The notes under the pieces: generated by a model | What the model was told of the DNA's origin: nothing | Databases searched by the model: none | The model's input: the letters and a program-made list of their open reading frames with translations, nothing else | In this document: positions 21,154 through 29,873 of the stretch, piece by piece | Layout of the letters: each line of letters starts with the position of its first letter | Position numbering within the stretch: the stretch's first letter is position 1 | Assembly (NCBI GenBank): GCA_001787755.1 | Contig: MFYJ01000014.1 | Span: forward strand, 62,001 to 126,000 | Reading direction: 5' to 3' | Length of the DNA stretch: 64,000 bases | Origin: Candidatus Peribacteria bacterium RIFOXYB1_FULL_54_35 | GTDB lineage: Bacteria > Patescibacteriota > Gracilibacteria > Peribacterales > Peribacteraceae | Translations under genes and position numbers: made by a program

Positions 21154-21200
21154 TTGGTATTTTCTTGATTGCATTCCCCGGTTTCCGTACGCTCCTGCCG

Positions 21201-22454
21201 ATGTCGCATGTCAAAGACCCGCAACTAGCAGAACAGGGGCGCCTGAATCTGGAGATCGCCGAACGGCGCATGGGCGCGCTCCTTAAACTGCGCAGGCGCA
21301 TTACCAAAGACCAGACTTTTGCGGGCCTCACCATCGGCATGGCCCTGCATGTGACCAAGGAGACCGGCGTGCTCGTACGCACGTTCACAGCGGGCGGTGC
21401 CAAAGTTGCCGTTACGAGCTGTAATCCCCTGAGCACCCAAGATGACATTGCTGCCGCGCTTGCGGAGGAAGACGGCGTGCTTGTGTGGGCGTACAAAGGA
21501 GAAACCACCGAGGACTACTACAAATTCCTCACCGCAGTCATCGATACTGAACCCGACATCACCATCGATGACGGGTGCGATCTCGTCACGGAAATTCACC
21601 AGAAGCATCCGGATCTCCTAAGCAAAGTGATCGGCGGATGCGAGGAAACCACGACGGGCATCAACCGCCTCCGCGCCATGGTGCAGGATGGCGCACTCAA
21701 GATGCCGATGATTGCGGTGAACGACAACAAGACCAAGCACCTCATGGACAACTACTACGGCACGGGGCAGTCCACCTTCGACGGCATCCTCCGTTCCACC
21801 AACATCCTCGTTGCAGGCAAGACAGTGGTGGTTCTTGGCTATGGAAGCTGCGGGAAAGGAGTGGCTCTGCGAGCCAAAGGGCTCGGGGCGCAGGTCATCG
21901 TCACCGAAGTAGACGCGTTCTGCGGGCTGCAGGCTGCCATGGACGGCAACCGCGTCATGCGGATGGAAGAGGCGGCACCTCTCGGCGATCTCTTCGTCAC
22001 TGTCACCGGCAACTACCACGTCATCCGCACGGAGCACATGCAGCACATGAAAGACACGGCGGTGCTCTGCAACTCCGGGCATTTCGATAATGAAATAGAT
22101 ATGAAGGGGCTGGAGACCATGGTCAAGCGCAAGCGCCGCGTGCGCCACTACCTCGATGAGTACCTTATGAAAGACGGGCGTGTCCTCTACGTGGCTGGGG
22201 AAGGACGCCTCGTGAACCTCGCCTCGGCGGAAGGGCACCCAAGCGAAGTAATGAGCCTCTCGTTCTGCGGGCAGGCGCTGGCATGCGAATACCTCGTGAA
22301 GCACAGGGGCAAGCTCCCGAAAGACGTCATCACGCTCCCGCCGGAAATCGATGCGGAGATTGCACAGCTTCAGCTCACTGCCATGGGTCTGACTATTGAT
22401 AAGCTCACTCCCGAGCAGGTGAAATATTTGGCGAGCTGGCAGGAGGGGACGTAG
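21201..22454 (+). CDS. ahcY: Adenosylhomocysteinase (SAH hydrolase)
   Basis: 417 aa, close to the shorter archaeal/thermophile form. Landmarks are CNPLSTQDDIAAAL, the substrate block VNDNKTKHLMDNYYGTGQS (two runs around residues 171-190), the NAD motif VVLGYGSCGKGVALRAKGLG, and HPSEVMSLSFCGQ. It splits S-adenosylhomocysteine into adenosine and homocysteine, relieving product inhibition of the methyltransferases in the window. TACGCT at 21188-21193 ends 7 nt before the ATG, with no SD. Confidence 0.95.
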   Translation: MSHVKDPQLAEQGRLNLEIAERRMGALLKLRRRITKDQTFAGLTIGMALHVTKETGVLVRTFTAGGAKVAVTSCNPLSTQDDIAAALAEEDGVLVWAYKGETTEDYYKFLTAVIDTEPDITIDDGCDLVTEIHQKHPDLLSKVIGGCEETTTGINRLRAMVQDGALKMPMIAVNDNKTKHLMDNYYGTGQSTFDGILRSTNILVAGKTVVVLGYGSCGKGVALRAKGLGAQVIVTEVDAFCGLQAAMDGNRVMRMEEAAPLGDLFVTVTGNYHVIRTEHMQHMKDTAVLCNSGHFDNEIDMKGLETMVKRKRRVRHYLDEYLMKDGRVLYVAGEGRLVNLASAEGHPSEVMSLSFCGQALACEYLVKHRGKLPKDVITLPPEIDAEIAQLQLTAMGLTIDKLTPEQVKYLASWQEGT

Positions 22455-22458
22455 GAAA

Positions 22459-22560
22459 ATCCTGAAAAACTCAAGTTGTCACAGTGAGCTCTGACGAACT
22501 GCGACAACTTGGCGCATGTCATGGTTCGTCAGTGCTCACCATGACATGCTTTTATAGAGC
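22459..22560. repeat. Dispersed palindromic repeat, copy 2 (empty site)
   Basis: Same two hairpins as 1853-1990: arms AGTTGTCACAG / CTGCGACAACT, then GCATGTCATGG / CCATGACATGC. CTCTGACG joins AACTGCGAC directly at 22496/22497, so the 20-bp palindrome present at 1892-1911 is absent. Confidence 0.85.
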
Positions 22561-22587
22561 TTCCCCCACAAACCCCTGAGTGCATGA

Positions 22588-22633
22588 AGAAAAGCCCTGG
22601 CGTCGGTTACCGCGGCGGTAACCAACCCAAGGC
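22588..22633 (-). terminator. Intrinsic terminator of small gene A
   Basis: A long GC-rich stem with inner arms GGTTACCGC / GCGGTAACC (22594-22633), followed on the minus strand by TTTTCTTC. A near-identical copy ends small gene B at 22945-22989. Confidence 0.85.
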
Positions 22634-22641
22634 GTGCCTCC

Positions 22642-22788
22642 TCAGAATCCTTTTTCCCTTGCGGCTTTGCGAAGGGCGGCCTTTTGCTCGTACCAGGCGC
22701 GTACTTCGGCCTTCTTCGCACGTTTTCCCTTTGGTAGGGGTTTTTCGTGCTTTGCGTCGCGCCTCGCCTGCTGACGGTTCTTGGTCAT
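22642..22788 (-). CDS. Small basic protein A (48 aa), unknown function
   Basis: It begins MTKNRQQARRDAKHEK and ends with AALRKAAREKGF; about one third of the residues are Lys or Arg, with no membrane segment. A perfect Shine-Dalgarno AGGAGG lies 6 nt before the ATG at 22788, unusual for this window. The gene has a -35/-10 promoter, a hairpin leader and an intrinsic terminator, all duplicated around gene B, although the two proteins resemble each other only weakly at the N-terminus. A nucleic-acid- or ribosome-binding role is a guess from charge alone. Confidence 0.75.
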   Translation of the reverse strand: MTKNRQQARRDAKHEKPLPKGKRAKKAEVRAWYEQKAALRKAAREKGF

Positions 22789-22924
22789 CGGCACCTCCTT
22801 TCCGGTGATTCAGGTTGGAACAGAAGAGGGGAAGATGCTCTTTTCAAGAGAGCACTCTCCTCTCCCCGTTTTTTGCTGTTTTCAACGATCAAATGGGTTG
22901 TAACTGCTAGTTGTGTAAAATCAA
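22789..22924 (-). promoter_or_regulatory. Promoter and structured leader of small gene A
   Basis: On the minus strand TTGATT (22919-22924) and TACAAC (22897-22902) are spaced by 16 bp. The transcript would begin near 22890 and run about 100 nt to the ATG. It contains a hairpin with arms GAGAGGAGAGTGCTC / GAGCATCTTCCCCTC (about 22823-22867). Promoter, hairpin and SD are all conserved upstream of gene B. Confidence 0.7.
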
Positions 22925-22944
22925 GAATGTTTTTTTATAATATG

Positions 22945-22989
22945 AAAAAGCCCTGGCGTCGGTTACCGTGGCGGTAACCAACCCAAGGC
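22945..22989 (-). terminator. Intrinsic terminator of small gene B
   Basis: Copy of the 22588-22633 terminator, differing by few bases, with TTTTTC on the minus strand after the stem. The promoter of gene A starts immediately after it. Confidence 0.85.
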
Positions 22990-23009
22990 GTGCCTCTTCG
23001 TGGGGAGAA

Positions 23010-23213
23010 TCACCCCCCCTTGGCGGCTTTCATGAGCCGATGGAACTCGCTCTCCGAGATTCTCGGATGTTGCCGAGCAAATTTCTTGGCGGCTTTCACC
23101 GCCTCGGCTTGATGCTGGGCAAGCTTCGCCCTTGCTCGCTTGCCCATTTTTGCATTGGAGTGCTGAGAACTCCGTTCATCAGCTTTTCGCTCCCGTCGGT
23201 TCTTCTTCGACAC
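23010..23213 (-). CDS. Small basic protein B (67 aa), unknown function
   Basis: It begins MSKKNRRERKADERSS, is rich in Lys, Arg, Ala and His, and has a probable amphipathic helix KLAQHQAEAVKAAKKFARQ in the middle. The start is GTG at 23213, with GGAAGGAGGTGAGCA just upstream giving a strong SD. Its promoter, hairpin leader and terminator are sister copies of those of gene A. No family recognised. Confidence 0.75.
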   Translation of the reverse strand: MSKKNRRERKADERSSQHSNAKMGKRARAKLAQHQAEAVKAAKKFARQHPRISESEFHRLMKAAKGG

Positions 23214-23359
23214 TGCTCACCTCCTTCCGGTTATTGGGATGTTGGAAGCTGTTGGGACAGAAGAGGGGAAGATGCTCCGTATAAGCACTCTCCTCTCTTC
23301 GGTTTGATTCATGCTTTCAAAGACTGAATGGATTGTACCGAGTGATTGCTATAAATCAA
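23214..23359 (-). promoter_or_regulatory. Promoter and structured leader of small gene B
   Basis: On the minus strand TTGATT (23354-23359) and TACAAT (23332-23337) are spaced by 16 bp, as for gene A, with matching flanks (ACATTC before the -35). The leader hairpin has arms AGAGGAGAGTGCTT / AGCATCTTCCCCTCT (about 23263-23299), followed by the SD. Confidence 0.7.
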
Positions 23360-23378
23360 GAATGTGTCTTTATGATTT

Positions 23379-23419
23379 GGAAGGCAGAAGTCAGTTTTTT
23401 GTACTGACCTCTGCCTTCC
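23379..23419. terminator. Strong hairpin with T-rich loop
   Basis: Arms GGAAGGCAGAAGTCAGT (23379-23395) and ACTGACCTCTGCCTTCC (23403-23419) differ by one position. It uses the same GAAGGCAG words as 60040-60085. It insulates gene B's promoter from the region to the right. Between it and 23573 I see only AT-rich sequence. Confidence 0.6.
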
Positions 23420-23572
23420 GCTTTTTGCCCTCTTATTCCGAAGTCCTCTGTCTTGCTGTTTTTACCTTCTGTATGCGCAAAATAAGGATGATGTGATGTA
23501 TGGTTGACTCTTTGGTTTCCATTCCTTATTCTGACGAATGTCACTTGTATTCTTGTAATGGTACAAAGTAAT

Positions 23573-23600
23573 TGACAATTATCTGTATTAGTTTATCTTA
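23573..23600 (+). promoter_or_regulatory. Sigma-70-type promoter for the candidate RNA at 23607
   Basis: A consensus -35 TTGACA (23573-23578) is followed after 16 bp by TATCTT (23595-23600). The upstream DNA is AT-rich. Confidence 0.55.
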
Positions 23601-23606
23601 TTCAAA

Positions 23607-23735
23607 GCGATGAAGAACCGTTCCCACCTCATCACCGCCCTGTGCCCGATTCGCTTCCTCTATGAGGAAGGGGTGCTCAGCTGATGGAGAGACAGAACTG
23701 AGTAGCATGCCCCTTCAAAGCAAGAAGGGCTTTTC
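23607..23735 (+). ncRNA. Candidate small structured RNA
   Basis: Between the promoter at 23573 and a terminator hairpin GCCCCTTC / GAAGGGC with TTTTCGTT (23709-23735) lie about 130 nt without a credible open frame. Internal hairpins are TTCCTC / GAGGAA near 23650 and TGCTCAG / CTGAG-AGCA near 23671-23708. I could not match it to SRP, 6S, tmRNA or RNase P RNA by eye. It could instead be an attenuator leader for the gene at 23869. Confidence 0.45.
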
Positions 23736-23868
23736 GTTCATTCACAACACCGTTCTGTATGTACCTTGCTCTTGTGCCTCCTTAACTACTGAAACAATGC
23801 ATAGAAGGGGGCCCACGGATTTCCGTGCCATGTTGGGAGAGCTGGAAACTTTTTGGGAGAATCGTTTT

Positions 23869-24069
23869 ATGGCCAGTCAGAAGGCACTGAGGAAGATGCG
23901 GAGCCGCAATGGGTCCGGTCAAGCGGTCGCTGCCAGCACCAACGGCAACGGCGAGATGTCGGCCGCCGCCCGCAAGCTGCTTGAGAATGCAGCTCTGCGG
24001 GGCGCAACCGGGTCCAACAACGTGACCCGGGAGCGACAGCTTGTTGCTGCTAGGGCCAAGCGTGCCTGA
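23869..24069 (+). CDS. Small basic protein C (66 aa), unknown function
   Basis: It begins MASQKALRKMRSRNG and ends QLVAARAKRA, with a Ser/Asn/Gly-rich linker in the middle and no membrane segment. GGGAG lies 9 nt before the ATG at 23869. The frame is open further upstream (to 23662), but that part crosses the RNA terminator and the module edge, so the short form is preferred. Followed by a strong terminator at 24104. Confidence 0.55.
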   Translation: MASQKALRKMRSRNGSGQAVAASTNGNGEMSAAARKLLENAALRGATGSNNVTRERQLVAARAKRA

Positions 24070-24103
24070 TCTTCTGGGCTTCTTTTCTCATCTCCCAAAC
24101 CCC

Positions 24104-24140
24104 GCTCAGTCCGCTACAGTTTCACTGCGGCGGACTGAGC
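24104..24140 (+). terminator. Terminator-like hairpin after small gene C
   Basis: Perfect 11-bp stem GCTCAGTCCGC / GCGGACTGAGC with a 15-nt loop. Module 2 carries a counterpart at 24401-24438 with a shared loop end (GTTT-ACTGC). Confidence 0.6.
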
Positions 24141-24320
24141 ACATCCTTACCATCCATTTGGGGGGAGCAAGGTGTGTACACCACAGTGATCTTTTAAAGC
24201 GTCGTCTTTCGTACGTACCTTGCTCTTGTACCTCCTTCGTTTTACGGGGGGCGGTCCGCACTTCTGTGTGCCAGCGATGGAAGAGCATTCATAAAGTGAG
24301 AAAAATTCTGAGCATCAGAA

Positions 24321-24367
24321 AGGCTCACCGCACTTGCGAGACCAAGTTCTCCTAAGTGTGGTGAGCC
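24321..24367 (+). ncRNA. Candidate structured RNA inside module 2
   Basis: GGCTCACCGCACTT (24321-24334) pairs with AAGTGTGGTGAGCC (24354-24367) at 13 of 14 positions around a 19-nt loop. A partly paired outer layer (AAAGTGAGAAA with TTTCTCAC) surrounds it. The only open frame here is a 29-codon string without a clear SD. Confidence 0.35.
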
Positions 24368-24400
24368 ACTGGTAGCTCACTTTATTTCTCACCTGACGAA

Positions 24401-24450
24401 GCTCGGTCCGTTTGTGGTTTACTGCAGGCGGACCGAGCAATCTTTTGATT
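24401..24450 (+). terminator. Intrinsic terminator in module 2
   Basis: Perfect 10-bp stem GCTCGGTCCG / CGGACCGAGC (24401-24410, 24429-24438), followed by AATCTTTTGATTTT. Confidence 0.7.
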
Positions 24451-24493
24451 TTATGGAAGGAGCAAGGTGCGTACGTAATTCGTGATAGATGAT

Positions 24494-24533
24494 CTGGTCT
24501 TTTCCAGCCGGTCGCTCGATCGGCGGAGACCAG
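24494..24533 (+). promoter_or_regulatory. Leader hairpin of small gene D
   Basis: CTGGTCT / AGACCAG (24494-24500, 24527-24533) with an inner GCCG / CGGC stem. It ends 30 nt before the start codon. Confidence 0.5.
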
Positions 24534-24562
24534 AGGGGTCTGACGCATGTTGGAGGACCAAT

Positions 24563-24862
24563 ATGTCCCGACGAAAAACCAGACGGGGCAAGCGGTACCA
24601 TGTGCACAATGGGAATGGACGACTCATGTTGAGCCGGAAGGGCGGAAGCCTCCGTTTCCAGCTTCGTTCACTGGTAGCGTGGACTGATCAAGAATGTCCT
24701 TTCTGCGGGGTGTTCCTTGCCAGCAGGAAAAGCTGGCACGAGCATCTCTTCGGCAGGAATGGCGAGGGGCCTCGGTGCCCCAAGGTCCGTGGCTGGTTGC
24801 GGCAACGCAACCGCCCGGTCGGCCGCCGCCGCAGGTGGCGGCTGCAGACGTTCCCCGTTTAG
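24563..24862 (+). CDS. Small Arg-rich zinc-finger-like protein D (99 aa)
   Basis: It begins MSRRKTRRGKRYHVHNG. A zinc-finger-like segment, ECPFCGVFLASRKSWHEHLF (about residues 48-67), has Cys-x2-Cys then His-x-His, with another Cys 12 residues later; Arg-rich tails flank it (RPVGRRRRWRLQ). TTGGAGGACC gives an SD before the ATG at 24563. The sequence around the start, GGAGGACCAATATGTC, is nearly identical to that of small gene E. A nucleic-acid-binding role is plausible from composition only. Confidence 0.7.
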   Translation: MSRRKTRRGKRYHVHNGNGRLMLSRKGGSLRFQLRSLVAWTDQECPFCGVFLASRKSWHEHLFGRNGEGPRCPKVRGWLRQRNRPVGRRRRWRLQTFPV

Positions 24863-24908
24863 CGTTGTTCTCGTCCCATCCGCCAACACGGGTTGGCTCC
24901 ACCTCTTT

Positions 24909-24940
24909 CCAGATCCCGCGGCTTTGGCTTCGGGATCTGG
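24909..24940 (+). terminator. Terminator of small gene D
   Basis: Perfect 9-bp stem CCAGATCCC / GGGATCTGG with a 14-nt loop, followed by GTCTTCTC. Confidence 0.65.
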
Positions 24941-24998
24941 GTCTTCTCAAGATCAGGTCATCTGTCACGTTGTTCTTTTCATTTTCGCAGCAAGAAAC

Positions 24999-25057
24999 CT
25001 GTTCTGCTCAATTTTCACTGACGTAGCGGAGCTCCGTTGCGGGCTCCGGCAGAACAG
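24999..25057 (+). promoter_or_regulatory. Leader hairpin of small gene E
   Basis: Perfect 9-bp stem CTGTTCTGC / GCAGAACAG (24999-25007, 25049-25057) enclosing GGAGC / GCTCC. It ends 22 nt before the ATG. Confidence 0.5.
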
Positions 25058-25079
25058 TACCGATTGTCGGAGGACAAAT

Positions 25080-25193
25080 ATGTCGAAGAACCCCCGGTGT
25101 CCCACCTGTCGCCGTCTCATGAAGAAATGCAAGTGCTCGACTGGTTCGAGCAACACCGATGGCCGGGGAGGGACCAAGCCGAAGAAGGGTTGA
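25080..25193 (+). CDS. Tiny Cys-rich protein E (37 aa)
   Basis: It begins MSKNPRCPTCRRLMKKCKCS: a Cys-x2-Cys followed by Cys-x-Cys, as in a minimal zinc knuckle, then a Ser/Gly/Lys tail. SD GGAGGA lies 7 nt before the ATG. The start context matches gene D. Two strong hairpins follow its stop. No family recognised. Confidence 0.65.
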   Translation: MSKNPRCPTCRRLMKKCKCSTGSSNTDGRGGTKPKKG

Positions 25194-25217
25194 GCGTGTT
25201 GCACTCTGACAATTCCC

Positions 25218-25238
25218 GCCGGTGACTCTGTCACCGGC
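25218..25238 (+). terminator. Terminator-like hairpin 1 after small gene E
   Basis: Perfect stem GCCGGTGAC / GTCACCGGC with a 3-nt loop. Confidence 0.6.
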
Positions 25239-25245
25239 ATCCTTA

Positions 25246-25278
25246 GCGGCTCCGTACTCGTCGAGAGTACGGAGCCGC
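25246..25278. terminator. Hairpin 2 after small gene E
   Basis: Perfect 14-bp stem GCGGCTCCGTACTC / GAGTACGGAGCCGC with a 5-nt loop; no U-tract follows. Confidence 0.55.
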
Positions 25279-25313
25279 GCATCTTCAGAACAGATTTCTT
25301 GGTGCCAGCTCCG

Positions 25314-25420
25314 CCACTCTTCGACGAACTCAGGGTGGCAGCGTACAATTGTCATTGCGGAGAATAACAAGGCCATAGCGGGTCAGTTGTGTCATGGATT
25401 CGACTCCGCTCACCATGACG
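25314..25420. repeat. Two palindromic repeat units of the CCTGAG/GTCGAAG class
   Basis: CCACTC-TTCGACGAACTCAG-GGTGG at 25314-25338, and GTCATGGATTCGACTCCGCT-CACCATGAC at about 25392-25420. Both are short hairpins related to those at 1936, 22521 and 36153. Confidence 0.5.
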
Positions 25421-25439
25421 AAAAGGGTACAATTGTTCC

Positions 25440-26393
25440 GTGAGCAACAATAAAGAGATCGCCGGTCAACTCCGTCAGATAGCCGCTTTGCTTGCTGAGC
25501 AGCAGGTGCCTTTTAAACCTGCCGCGTACCGCCGTGCAGCGCAGGTGGTAGAGGATCTGCCGCGGGATGTCTGCACGTACGGCAGTGCGAAAGAACTGGA
25601 GAAGCTGCCGGCGATTGGGGAGGCTATCGCCAAGAAGATCATTGAGTACCTGGAAACAGGGCAAATTTCCTTTCTTGTGAAGCTGCGTGCTGAGCAGGGA
25701 GGGATTTCTGCAGAGCTCATGGACATCGAAGATCTTGGCCCCAAAAGAGTCCGGCAGATTCAATCTGCCCTTGGCATTACCACGGTTGCAGGGCTCATCA
25801 AAGCGGCGGAAGCGGGAAAGCTGCAGGGTCTCCCGCGCATGTCTGCTCTCATGGAGAAGAAAATTCTCGAGAACGCGAAGCGCGTGAAGGAGCGGACCAG
25901 GCGGTTCCCTCGTGAGGAGATCAAAGATGATGTGGAGAAACTCCGGAAGACCATTGGGGGTGTGCAAGGTATCGAAAAATTAGAAATTGCCGGTTCGTAC
26001 CGCAGGGAGAAAGAGACGGTGGGGGATATAGATGTGCTTGTGGTAACGAAGAAGCCGAAGAACGTTTCAGATGCCATTGCATCCCTTTCTTTTGTCCGTG
26101 ACACGGTGGCGCACGGCGATAAGAAACTTTCCTTCGATCTCAAGAATGGGCTCAGGGTGGATGTGCGGTTCGTTCGCAGGAACCAATGGGGTGCTGCGCT
26201 GCTCTACTTCACCGGTAGCAAGGAGCACAACATTGCCATGCGGAAAGTGGCGATGCGACACAAATGGAAACTCAATGAATACGGTCTTTTCAATGGAACT
26301 GGAAAATTTATCGCTGGTAAGACTGAACAAGAGGTATACGATAAGCTCGGTCTCCCGTATTTCCCGCCAAATCAGCGAATCGGCAAGCTGTAG
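25440..26393 (+). CDS. polX: DNA polymerase X family protein (no PHP domain)
   Basis: 317 aa. The N-terminal 8-kDa-like helix-hairpin-helix domain has LPAIGEAIAKKI; a second HhH is DLGPKRVRQIQSALG; the nucleotidyltransferase site is AGSYRREKETVGDIDVLV (GS...DID) with the third Asp in RVDVRFV. The C-terminal thumb ends KLNEYGLFNGTGKFIAGK. Bacterial PolX usually continues into a PHP exonuclease domain, absent here. GTG at 25440 is supported by TACAAT at 25428-25433, 6 nt upstream. A remnant of another PolX end follows. Confidence 0.9.
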   Translation: MSNNKEIAGQLRQIAALLAEQQVPFKPAAYRRAAQVVEDLPRDVCTYGSAKELEKLPAIGEAIAKKIIEYLETGQISFLVKLRAEQGGISAELMDIEDLGPKRVRQIQSALGITTVAGLIKAAEAGKLQGLPRMSALMEKKILENAKRVKERTRRFPREEIKDDVEKLRKTIGGVQGIEKLEIAGSYRREKETVGDIDVLVVTKKPKNVSDAIASLSFVRDTVAHGDKKLSFDLKNGLRVDVRFVRRNQWGAALLYFTGSKEHNIAMRKVAMRHKWKLNEYGLFNGTGKFIAGKTEQEVYDKLGLPYFPPNQRIGKL

Positions 26394-29242: not shown

Positions 29243-29340
29243 CGCCGTTTGATCCGCATTGGCATACGTCATCATTCCATATTCCATACTTTCCTTCTTT
29301 ACAGAGTACTGTGCTTGTTCACTCTGGTGGGTTGCGGAAC

Positions 29341-29783
29341 ACACAGTATTTTCGGATTCGCACTTCGTCCTTCGGACTCGTGCTCATCTGCAATTCAACT
29401 GTGGTGGGGAGTTGTACATATGCATGTCCTCTCTGTCGTGTAGTCCCGTTCGCTGCGGCTCACGGGACACAGTATCTTCGGACTCGTTCCCATTTCTTTC
29501 TTCTTTACACAGTACTGCGCTCAGAGGAAGGTGTGTATGTCCTCTCTGTTGTGCAGTCCCGTTCGCCTGCGGCTCACGGGACACAGTATCTTCGGATTCG
29601 CATTTCGTCCTTCGGACTCGTGCTCATCTCGAATTCAGTGGTGAGCTCGTCGAACCATGGCGGGAGAGGCACGTGTGCATGTTCTCTCTGTTGAGCAGTC
29701 CCGTTCGCCTGCGGCTCACGGGACACAGTATCTTCGGATTCGCACTTCGTCCTTCGGACTCGTGCTCATCTCGAATTCAACTG
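29341..29783. repeat. Tandem array abutting the tRNA-Ser 3' end
   Basis: Units begin ACACAGTATCTTCGGA at 29341, 29467, 29581 and 29723 (114-142 bp apart). Each includes the hairpin GTCCCGTTCG / CACGGGAC, and several end with CAACTGTGG or a variant. The last unit runs directly into the tRNA-Ser CCA end, and the earlier CTGTGG-TGGGGAG imitates that end. Confidence 0.8.
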
Positions 29784-29873
29784 TGGCGGAGGGACAGGGA
29801 TTTGAACCCTGGAACCCCTTGCGGGGTTACACGCTTTCCAGGCGTGCGCCATAGACCACTCGGCCATCCCTCC
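29784..29873 (-). tRNA. tRNA-Ser (GGA anticodon)
   Basis: 90 nt including an encoded CCA. The acceptor arms are GGAGGGA / TCCCTCC with discriminator G; the long variable arm (CCCCGCAAGGGG) is typical of Ser; the anticodon loop CTGGAAA gives GGA, reading UCC/UCU. The T arm GGTTCAAATCC is canonical. Confidence 0.95.

Follow-up and report, generated by a model that had tools for sequence, protein, structure and literature searches.

A conserved array of tiny basic-protein genes between ahcY and polX in Peribacteraceae, with putative boxA-like leaders resembling those of rRNA operons

In Candidatus Peribacteria bacterium RIFOXYB1_FULL_54_35, a member of Candidatus Peribacteraceae, two small genes lie in tandem on the minus strand of the window, i.e., the 64,000-nt stretch of contig MFYJ01000014.1 (positions 62,001 to 126,000) analyzed here. 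Gene A (22642–22788) encodes a basic protein of 48 aa and gene B (23010–23213, GTG start) one of 67 aa, preceded by AGGAGG Shine-Dalgarno (SD) sequences at 22799–22794 and 23225–23220, respectively. Direct reading of the minus strand places the promoters TTGATT-N16-TACAAC of gene A at 22897–22924 and TTGATT-N16-TACAAT of gene B at 23332–23359. Each leader is predicted to fold into a hairpin, at 22819–22870 for A (minimum free energy −29.7 kcal/mol; z −1.2 against shuffles), with pairing retained in B and in the relative G002, and at 23257–23303 for B (−31.2 kcal/mol; z about −2.7). Both units end in a copy of a 54-nt terminator, located by alignment and folding at 22590–22643 (A) and 22946–22999 (B); the copies differ at two positions (52/54 nt identical) and fold far more stably than shuffles (z −5.8 and −6.0). 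The leaders are 75% identical across 130 nt, and within the hairpin two runs match at 26/27 and 19/22 bases. The shared layout of minus-strand promoter, hairpin leader, AGGAGG and near-identical terminator described by the initial annotation is thus present in both units. The pair is best read as one transcription unit that was duplicated in tandem, from promoter through terminator, with homologous control parts in the same order. Across the whole 1.56-Mb assembly (98% complete), the terminator occurs in these two copies and the leader DNA has no copy besides A and B, so that a dispersed repeat or mobile element was rejected.

The pair opens a conserved Peribacteraceae array of genes for tiny basic or zinc-binding proteins. 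Its left border is ahcY (SAHH; 21165–22454, plus strand), present in 62 of the 74 family genomes and with nearest relatives at 79–85% identity, mostly in Candidatus Peribacteria or Peregrinibacteria genomes; its right border is a DNA polymerase X-like gene (polX; 25440–26393, plus strand). In 21 of the 39 named loci checked, polX starts 0.5–3 kb downstream of SAHH on the same strand, and several others among the 39 end short of polX. Beyond A and B, small genes extend on the plus strand to about 25200. Gene C (23869–24069; 66 aa, MASQKALRK...) has a syntenic counterpart in G002 (MASRSDRRR...). Gene D (24563–24862) encodes a 99-aa basic CxxC...HxxxH...C protein, and a boxA-like leader precedes its orthologue in another relative, G001 (52% identity, E 7e-26). 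Gene E (25080–25193, from the ORF list) encodes a 37-aa basic Cys protein (MSKNPRCPTCRRLMKKCKC...), and a similar one (MSRKIRCSRCGHILQKCSC...) is found in G030. Generally, the ORFs of the SAHH–polX interval are small, come with SD sites, and are KR-rich, CxxC or C2H2-like. Two further observations concern the surroundings: a pair of overlapping hairpins (14- and 12-bp arms) at 22472–22549, between the SAHH end and the A terminator, is probably the SAHH terminator region, and three ~115-nt direct repeats at 29283–29779 (63–95% identical, with a 34-nt core present four times) abut a minus-strand tRNA gene (29787–29873).

What are these proteins? Gene A matched no family in Pfam, NCBIfam or PHROG, and searches of the tiny proteins for known ribosomal or nucleoid families returned nothing above cut-off in Pfam and NCBIfam and nothing significant in PHROGs. 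In the PDB, B matched a designed helical repeat protein (E 2.6e-4), and Pfam gave a match to FRG1 (E 0.0012, below cut-off); both were taken as reflecting charge composition and discarded. An Rfam scan of the window at gathering score yielded tRNAs only, with nothing credible in 22400–25450. In size, charge and CxxC motifs, the tiny proteins are akin to bL34, bL36 and bTHX, but they differ from these in lacking a family or sequence match and in evolving very fast. Judged by size, charge, Cys motifs and the leader element they share (see below), they are likely lineage-specific, ribosome- or RNA-associated proteins.

Are A and B related beyond their control regions? The low likeness of the two proteins, as initially claimed, is borne out by direct comparison (P 0.09, local; P 0.20, global), and their coding DNA aligns no better than expected from codon-shuffled sequences (P about 0.2). 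Gene B has homologues of 64 aa in G002, which belongs to the same genus, and of 61 aa in G062, a member of another genus (shuffle-test P 0.00025 each). The former adjoins SAHH in the orientation seen in the window, on a contig that matches Candidatus Peregrinibacteria CG10_49_10; the latter sits just beyond polX. Among 1,521 small ORFs, phmmer recovers these two B orthologues, L104_9686 and L114_11537, at E 1.9e-3 and 1.6e-4, and, at 33–34% identity, they evolve fast. Both homologues have TTGAT(T/A)-N16 promoters and a purine/pyrimidine hairpin terminating in CTCTTCT. The leader therefore travels with the B family, rather than being found only here. At the corresponding place, G001 has a different gene of 36 aa behind a similar but looser leader; the 16-nt promoter spacing is common to the A, B, G002, G062 and G001 leaders. 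Whether A is a simple divergent copy of B received a mixed answer, since A resembles the G062 orthologue (P 0.005) but B itself at no better than P 0.09–0.20. Over three B-family members, the summed P is 0.025, driven by G062, and in a profile search A comes in ninth place (E 2). Weakly supported as this is, A is probably a diverged, shortened copy of B. Leader identity between A and B is close to that between B and its G002 orthologue (76%), so the duplication may date from roughly the time when those species separated, the terminator (96% identity) having meanwhile been kept or homogenized.

A covariance model of the A/B-type leader hairpin (R1), run over the 74 family genomes, retrieved A, B and the G002 orthologue alone; this exact hairpin thus revealed no regulon beyond them. 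Its remaining matches were unrelated hairpins, mostly without small ORFs, and a broad regulon defined by this leader was rejected. The model also missed the G062 leader, which was recovered by pattern and synteny. Within the three sequences, changes in the hairpin are one-sided, with no two-sided covariation; its pairing is therefore supported by conservation and energy, not by covariation.

A different element connects the array with the rRNA operons. The rRNA leaders of five genomes contain the sequence G(A/C)TC(T/C/A)TTCACA(G/C)CATCG ~100–210 nt before the 16S gene, and we built a position weight matrix (PWM) from these rRNA-leader boxA sequences and nothing else. In the 64-kb window, its best match is the plus-strand element GTTCATTCACAACACCG (23736–23752) in the leader of gene C, and the third best is GATCTTTTAAAGCGTCG (24188–24204, plus strand) in the leader of a further cassette, C′. 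At scores of at least 15 in 38 loci, 12 of 17 matches lie no more than 2 kb downstream of SAHH, in 69 kb that make up 13% of the sequence, and five in the other 469 kb, a 16-fold enrichment (binomial P 7e-8). Conversely, a sequence-only model (R2) was derived from 21 tiny-gene-type leaders (20 from the SAHH–polX interval, one at C7:271768) and no rRNA sequence. It gave 34 matches in 47 loci (752 kb): ~29 directly follow SAHH, three are in rRNA leaders and two elsewhere. In the window it scores the C and C′ elements at E 1.4e-4 and 3.4e-5 and the boxA/CTGTTCTGCTC leader of gene E (24970–25007, plus strand) at E 0.03. Its four best matches in the organism's own genome (G000) are three array leaders and the C7:271768 leader; over 33 genomes, it matches in 18 of 21 family members and in one of 12 from other families (weakly, E 0.017). 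Matches away from the array include the rRNA leaders of G006, G014, G016, G028 and G030, and probably those of G031 and G033. Like a second PWM, R2 was built from sites picked inside the interval, so its array matches are not independent evidence, while its rRNA matches are. Together with the rRNA-only PWM, the latter show that the array has an element in common with the organism's own rRNA leader, GMTCNTTCACASCATCG...AGAGAA in Peribacteraceae rRNA leaders versus GNTCYTTNANANCATYG...GAGAAA in those of the tiny genes. The E. coli consensus, GYTCTTTAANA, is weakly enriched, about 1.9-fold, when one mismatch is allowed (P 0.018) and not enriched as a perfect match; functional boxA identity therefore rests on analogy with the lineage's rRNA leader. 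A plain boxA pattern finds 62 matches in the genome versus 13 for its reverse, but it lacks specificity by itself, as the majority of the examined matches are located within long ORFs.

Across many genera, numerous plus-strand genes of the array have a leader in which a boxA-like element is followed by a hairpin and then an SD site. In 24 leaders, the boxA-to-SD segments show more structure than shuffled sequences do (mean z −2.1), and the ORFs that follow have a median length of 56 aa and 25% Lys+Arg; in some cassettes no clear ORF follows. The notion that control elements are kept and cargo is not, raised for A and B, extends to the wider array, with similar leaders before unrelated tiny proteins in many Peribacteraceae. 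The C and C′ leaders also contain a near-identical 27-nt repeat (GTAYGTACCTTGCTCTTGTRCCTCCTT; 23757–23783 and 24211–24237) after the boxA-like element, whose G002 counterpart reads GTACGTATGTTGCTCTT. Strong boxA-like leaders, each followed by a hairpin, exist off the ahcY locus as well, at G000:C7:271768-271809 (minus strand; L260) and G002:C42:24230-24273 (plus strand; L259), where the downstream genes look different; the L259 hairpin is a near-perfect 16-bp stem (GTAAGAAATCTGCTCT/AGAGTAGATTTCTTAC). Genomes without a detected SAHH keep paired boxA-like tiny-gene leaders (L257, G032:C1:170806-171609; L258, G031:C3:987794-988491), and neither polX nor SAHH is detectable near these pairs.

Do A and B themselves belong to this group? 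At their predicted transcript starts on the minus strand, A has a weak boxA-like match, GATCGTTGAAAACAGCA (22874–22890; PWM score 6.4, P about 0.02 for 60 positions), and B has AGTCTTTGAAAGCATGA (23309–23325; score 9.0, P about 0.008 for 60 positions), which ranks 18 of 127,968 positions. Both are weaker than the matches in plus-strand cassettes. The element of the G062 orthologue, GCTCTTTCATAGCAGTA, reaches P 0.0014, the G002 orthologue matches poorly (P 0.13), and in the G001 MAHGS leader the PWM finds no boxA-like element. A boxA-like element is thus likely, but not certain, to be present in leaders of the A/B type.

How might these units be controlled? The explanation we favor, and hold tentatively at a little short of an even chance, is that they are under rRNA-type control by boxA and Nus factors, with A and B as tandem duplicates and products that probably bind RNA or ribosomes. 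It appears the most likely reading because the same element occurs in the rRNA leader. Each unit would give rise to a short mRNA whose leader presents a boxA-like element and then a hairpin just 5′ of a strong SD. NusB and ribosomal protein S10, the Nus factors that recognize boxA, would associate with the leader RNA; by analogy, the amounts of these tiny basic or zinc-binding proteins would then follow rRNA transcription or free S10, upward or downward. The hairpin may contribute as well. NusB is encoded (PF01029 over cut-off) in G000 and eight of nine relatives, i.e., in nine of the ten genomes searched, the PF01029 search of G030 returning none. The interpretation suggested at the outset thus has partial support: a shared leader regulator is plausible, with boxA-binding Nus factors as a candidate because of the element common to the rRNA leader. 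In E. coli, NusB/S10 bind rRNA boxA, and suhB is repressed by Nus factors via a boxA in its mRNA leader, with added boxA–SD spacing of up to 100 nt tolerated; about a quarter of the functions of predicted boxA targets concern translation (PMC5725501). The array resembles suhB in placing a putative rRNA-type boxA ahead of the SD within its mRNA leaders, and boxA target genes are often linked to translation. It differs in that the genes are tiny and form an array, that a hairpin separates boxA from the SD, that boxA lies about 100–130 nt from the start codon, and that the lineage consensus departs from GYTCTTTAANA. Unlike rRNA operons, the units are protein-coding and very short.

Alternatively, the shared leader may simply be a strong, stabilizing 5′ UTR whose promoter, protective hairpin and strong SD ensure high constitutive expression with no dedicated regulator, following a plain tandem duplication. 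Duplication does account for the identity between A and B, every unit has a strong SD, a hairpin and a terminator, and R1 found no wider regulon; such a 5′ UTR, however, does not predict an rRNA-leader element in neighboring cassettes, and we consider this somewhat unlikely. Many ribosomal proteins repress their own translation by binding to their leader. A tiny basic protein could likewise bind its own leader hairpin as a mimic of an rRNA or other RNA target, and it would find that hairpin immediately 5′ of the SD, where in the sequence the arm CCUCUUCU could pair with AGGAGG as an alternative structure. Yet hairpin sequences vary among cassettes and the three A/B-type hairpins do not covary on both sides, which makes autogenous control unlikely. 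It is improbable, too, that small coding sequences are exchanged for unrelated ones by recombination within the conserved leaders and terminators, leaving the expression frame as it was, as had been considered for A and B. Their flanks resemble each other far more closely than their coding parts do, and similar leaders stand before unrelated cargo across genera, but cargo exchange is not needed to account for the pair: A scores as a weak B-family member (P 0.005–0.025), B orthologues likewise diverge fast, and some cargos (B, C and D) are orthologous between species. Finally, the tiny Arg-rich proteins could act with boxA and the hairpin to let RNA polymerase pass the terminators between units, as in a phage N/nut system. 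In phage lambda, nut consists of boxA and then a hairpin, and N is a small Arg-rich protein; the array offers the same order, with Arg-rich N-termini encoded nearby. The hairpin loops, however, vary from cassette to cassette, the units are short and read-through would reach no evident target, PHROGs gave no match and a phage context is missing, so that an N/nut-type system is very improbable.

Patescibacteria possess many small genes to which no role has been assigned and which are unrecognizable by sequence, the candidate phyla radiation is noted for reduced ribosomes, and boxA control of mRNAs has been worked out mainly in gamma-proteobacteria; a literature search of partial coverage found no paper on boxA in candidate phyla radiation bacteria. 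It is conceivable, albeit doubtful at present, that Peribacteraceae possess lineage-specific, fast-evolving tiny ribosome-associated proteins whose ahcY–polX units are coupled to rRNA synthesis via boxA leaders, small proteins unrelated to one another thereby forming a regulon defined by an rRNA-type leader. Should the leader be a genuine boxA, mRNA boxA control would be widened to the candidate phyla radiation, and small genes could be grouped by the control they have in common with rRNA, independently of their fast-evolving proteins. It would also point to unrecognized lineage-specific ribosome components.
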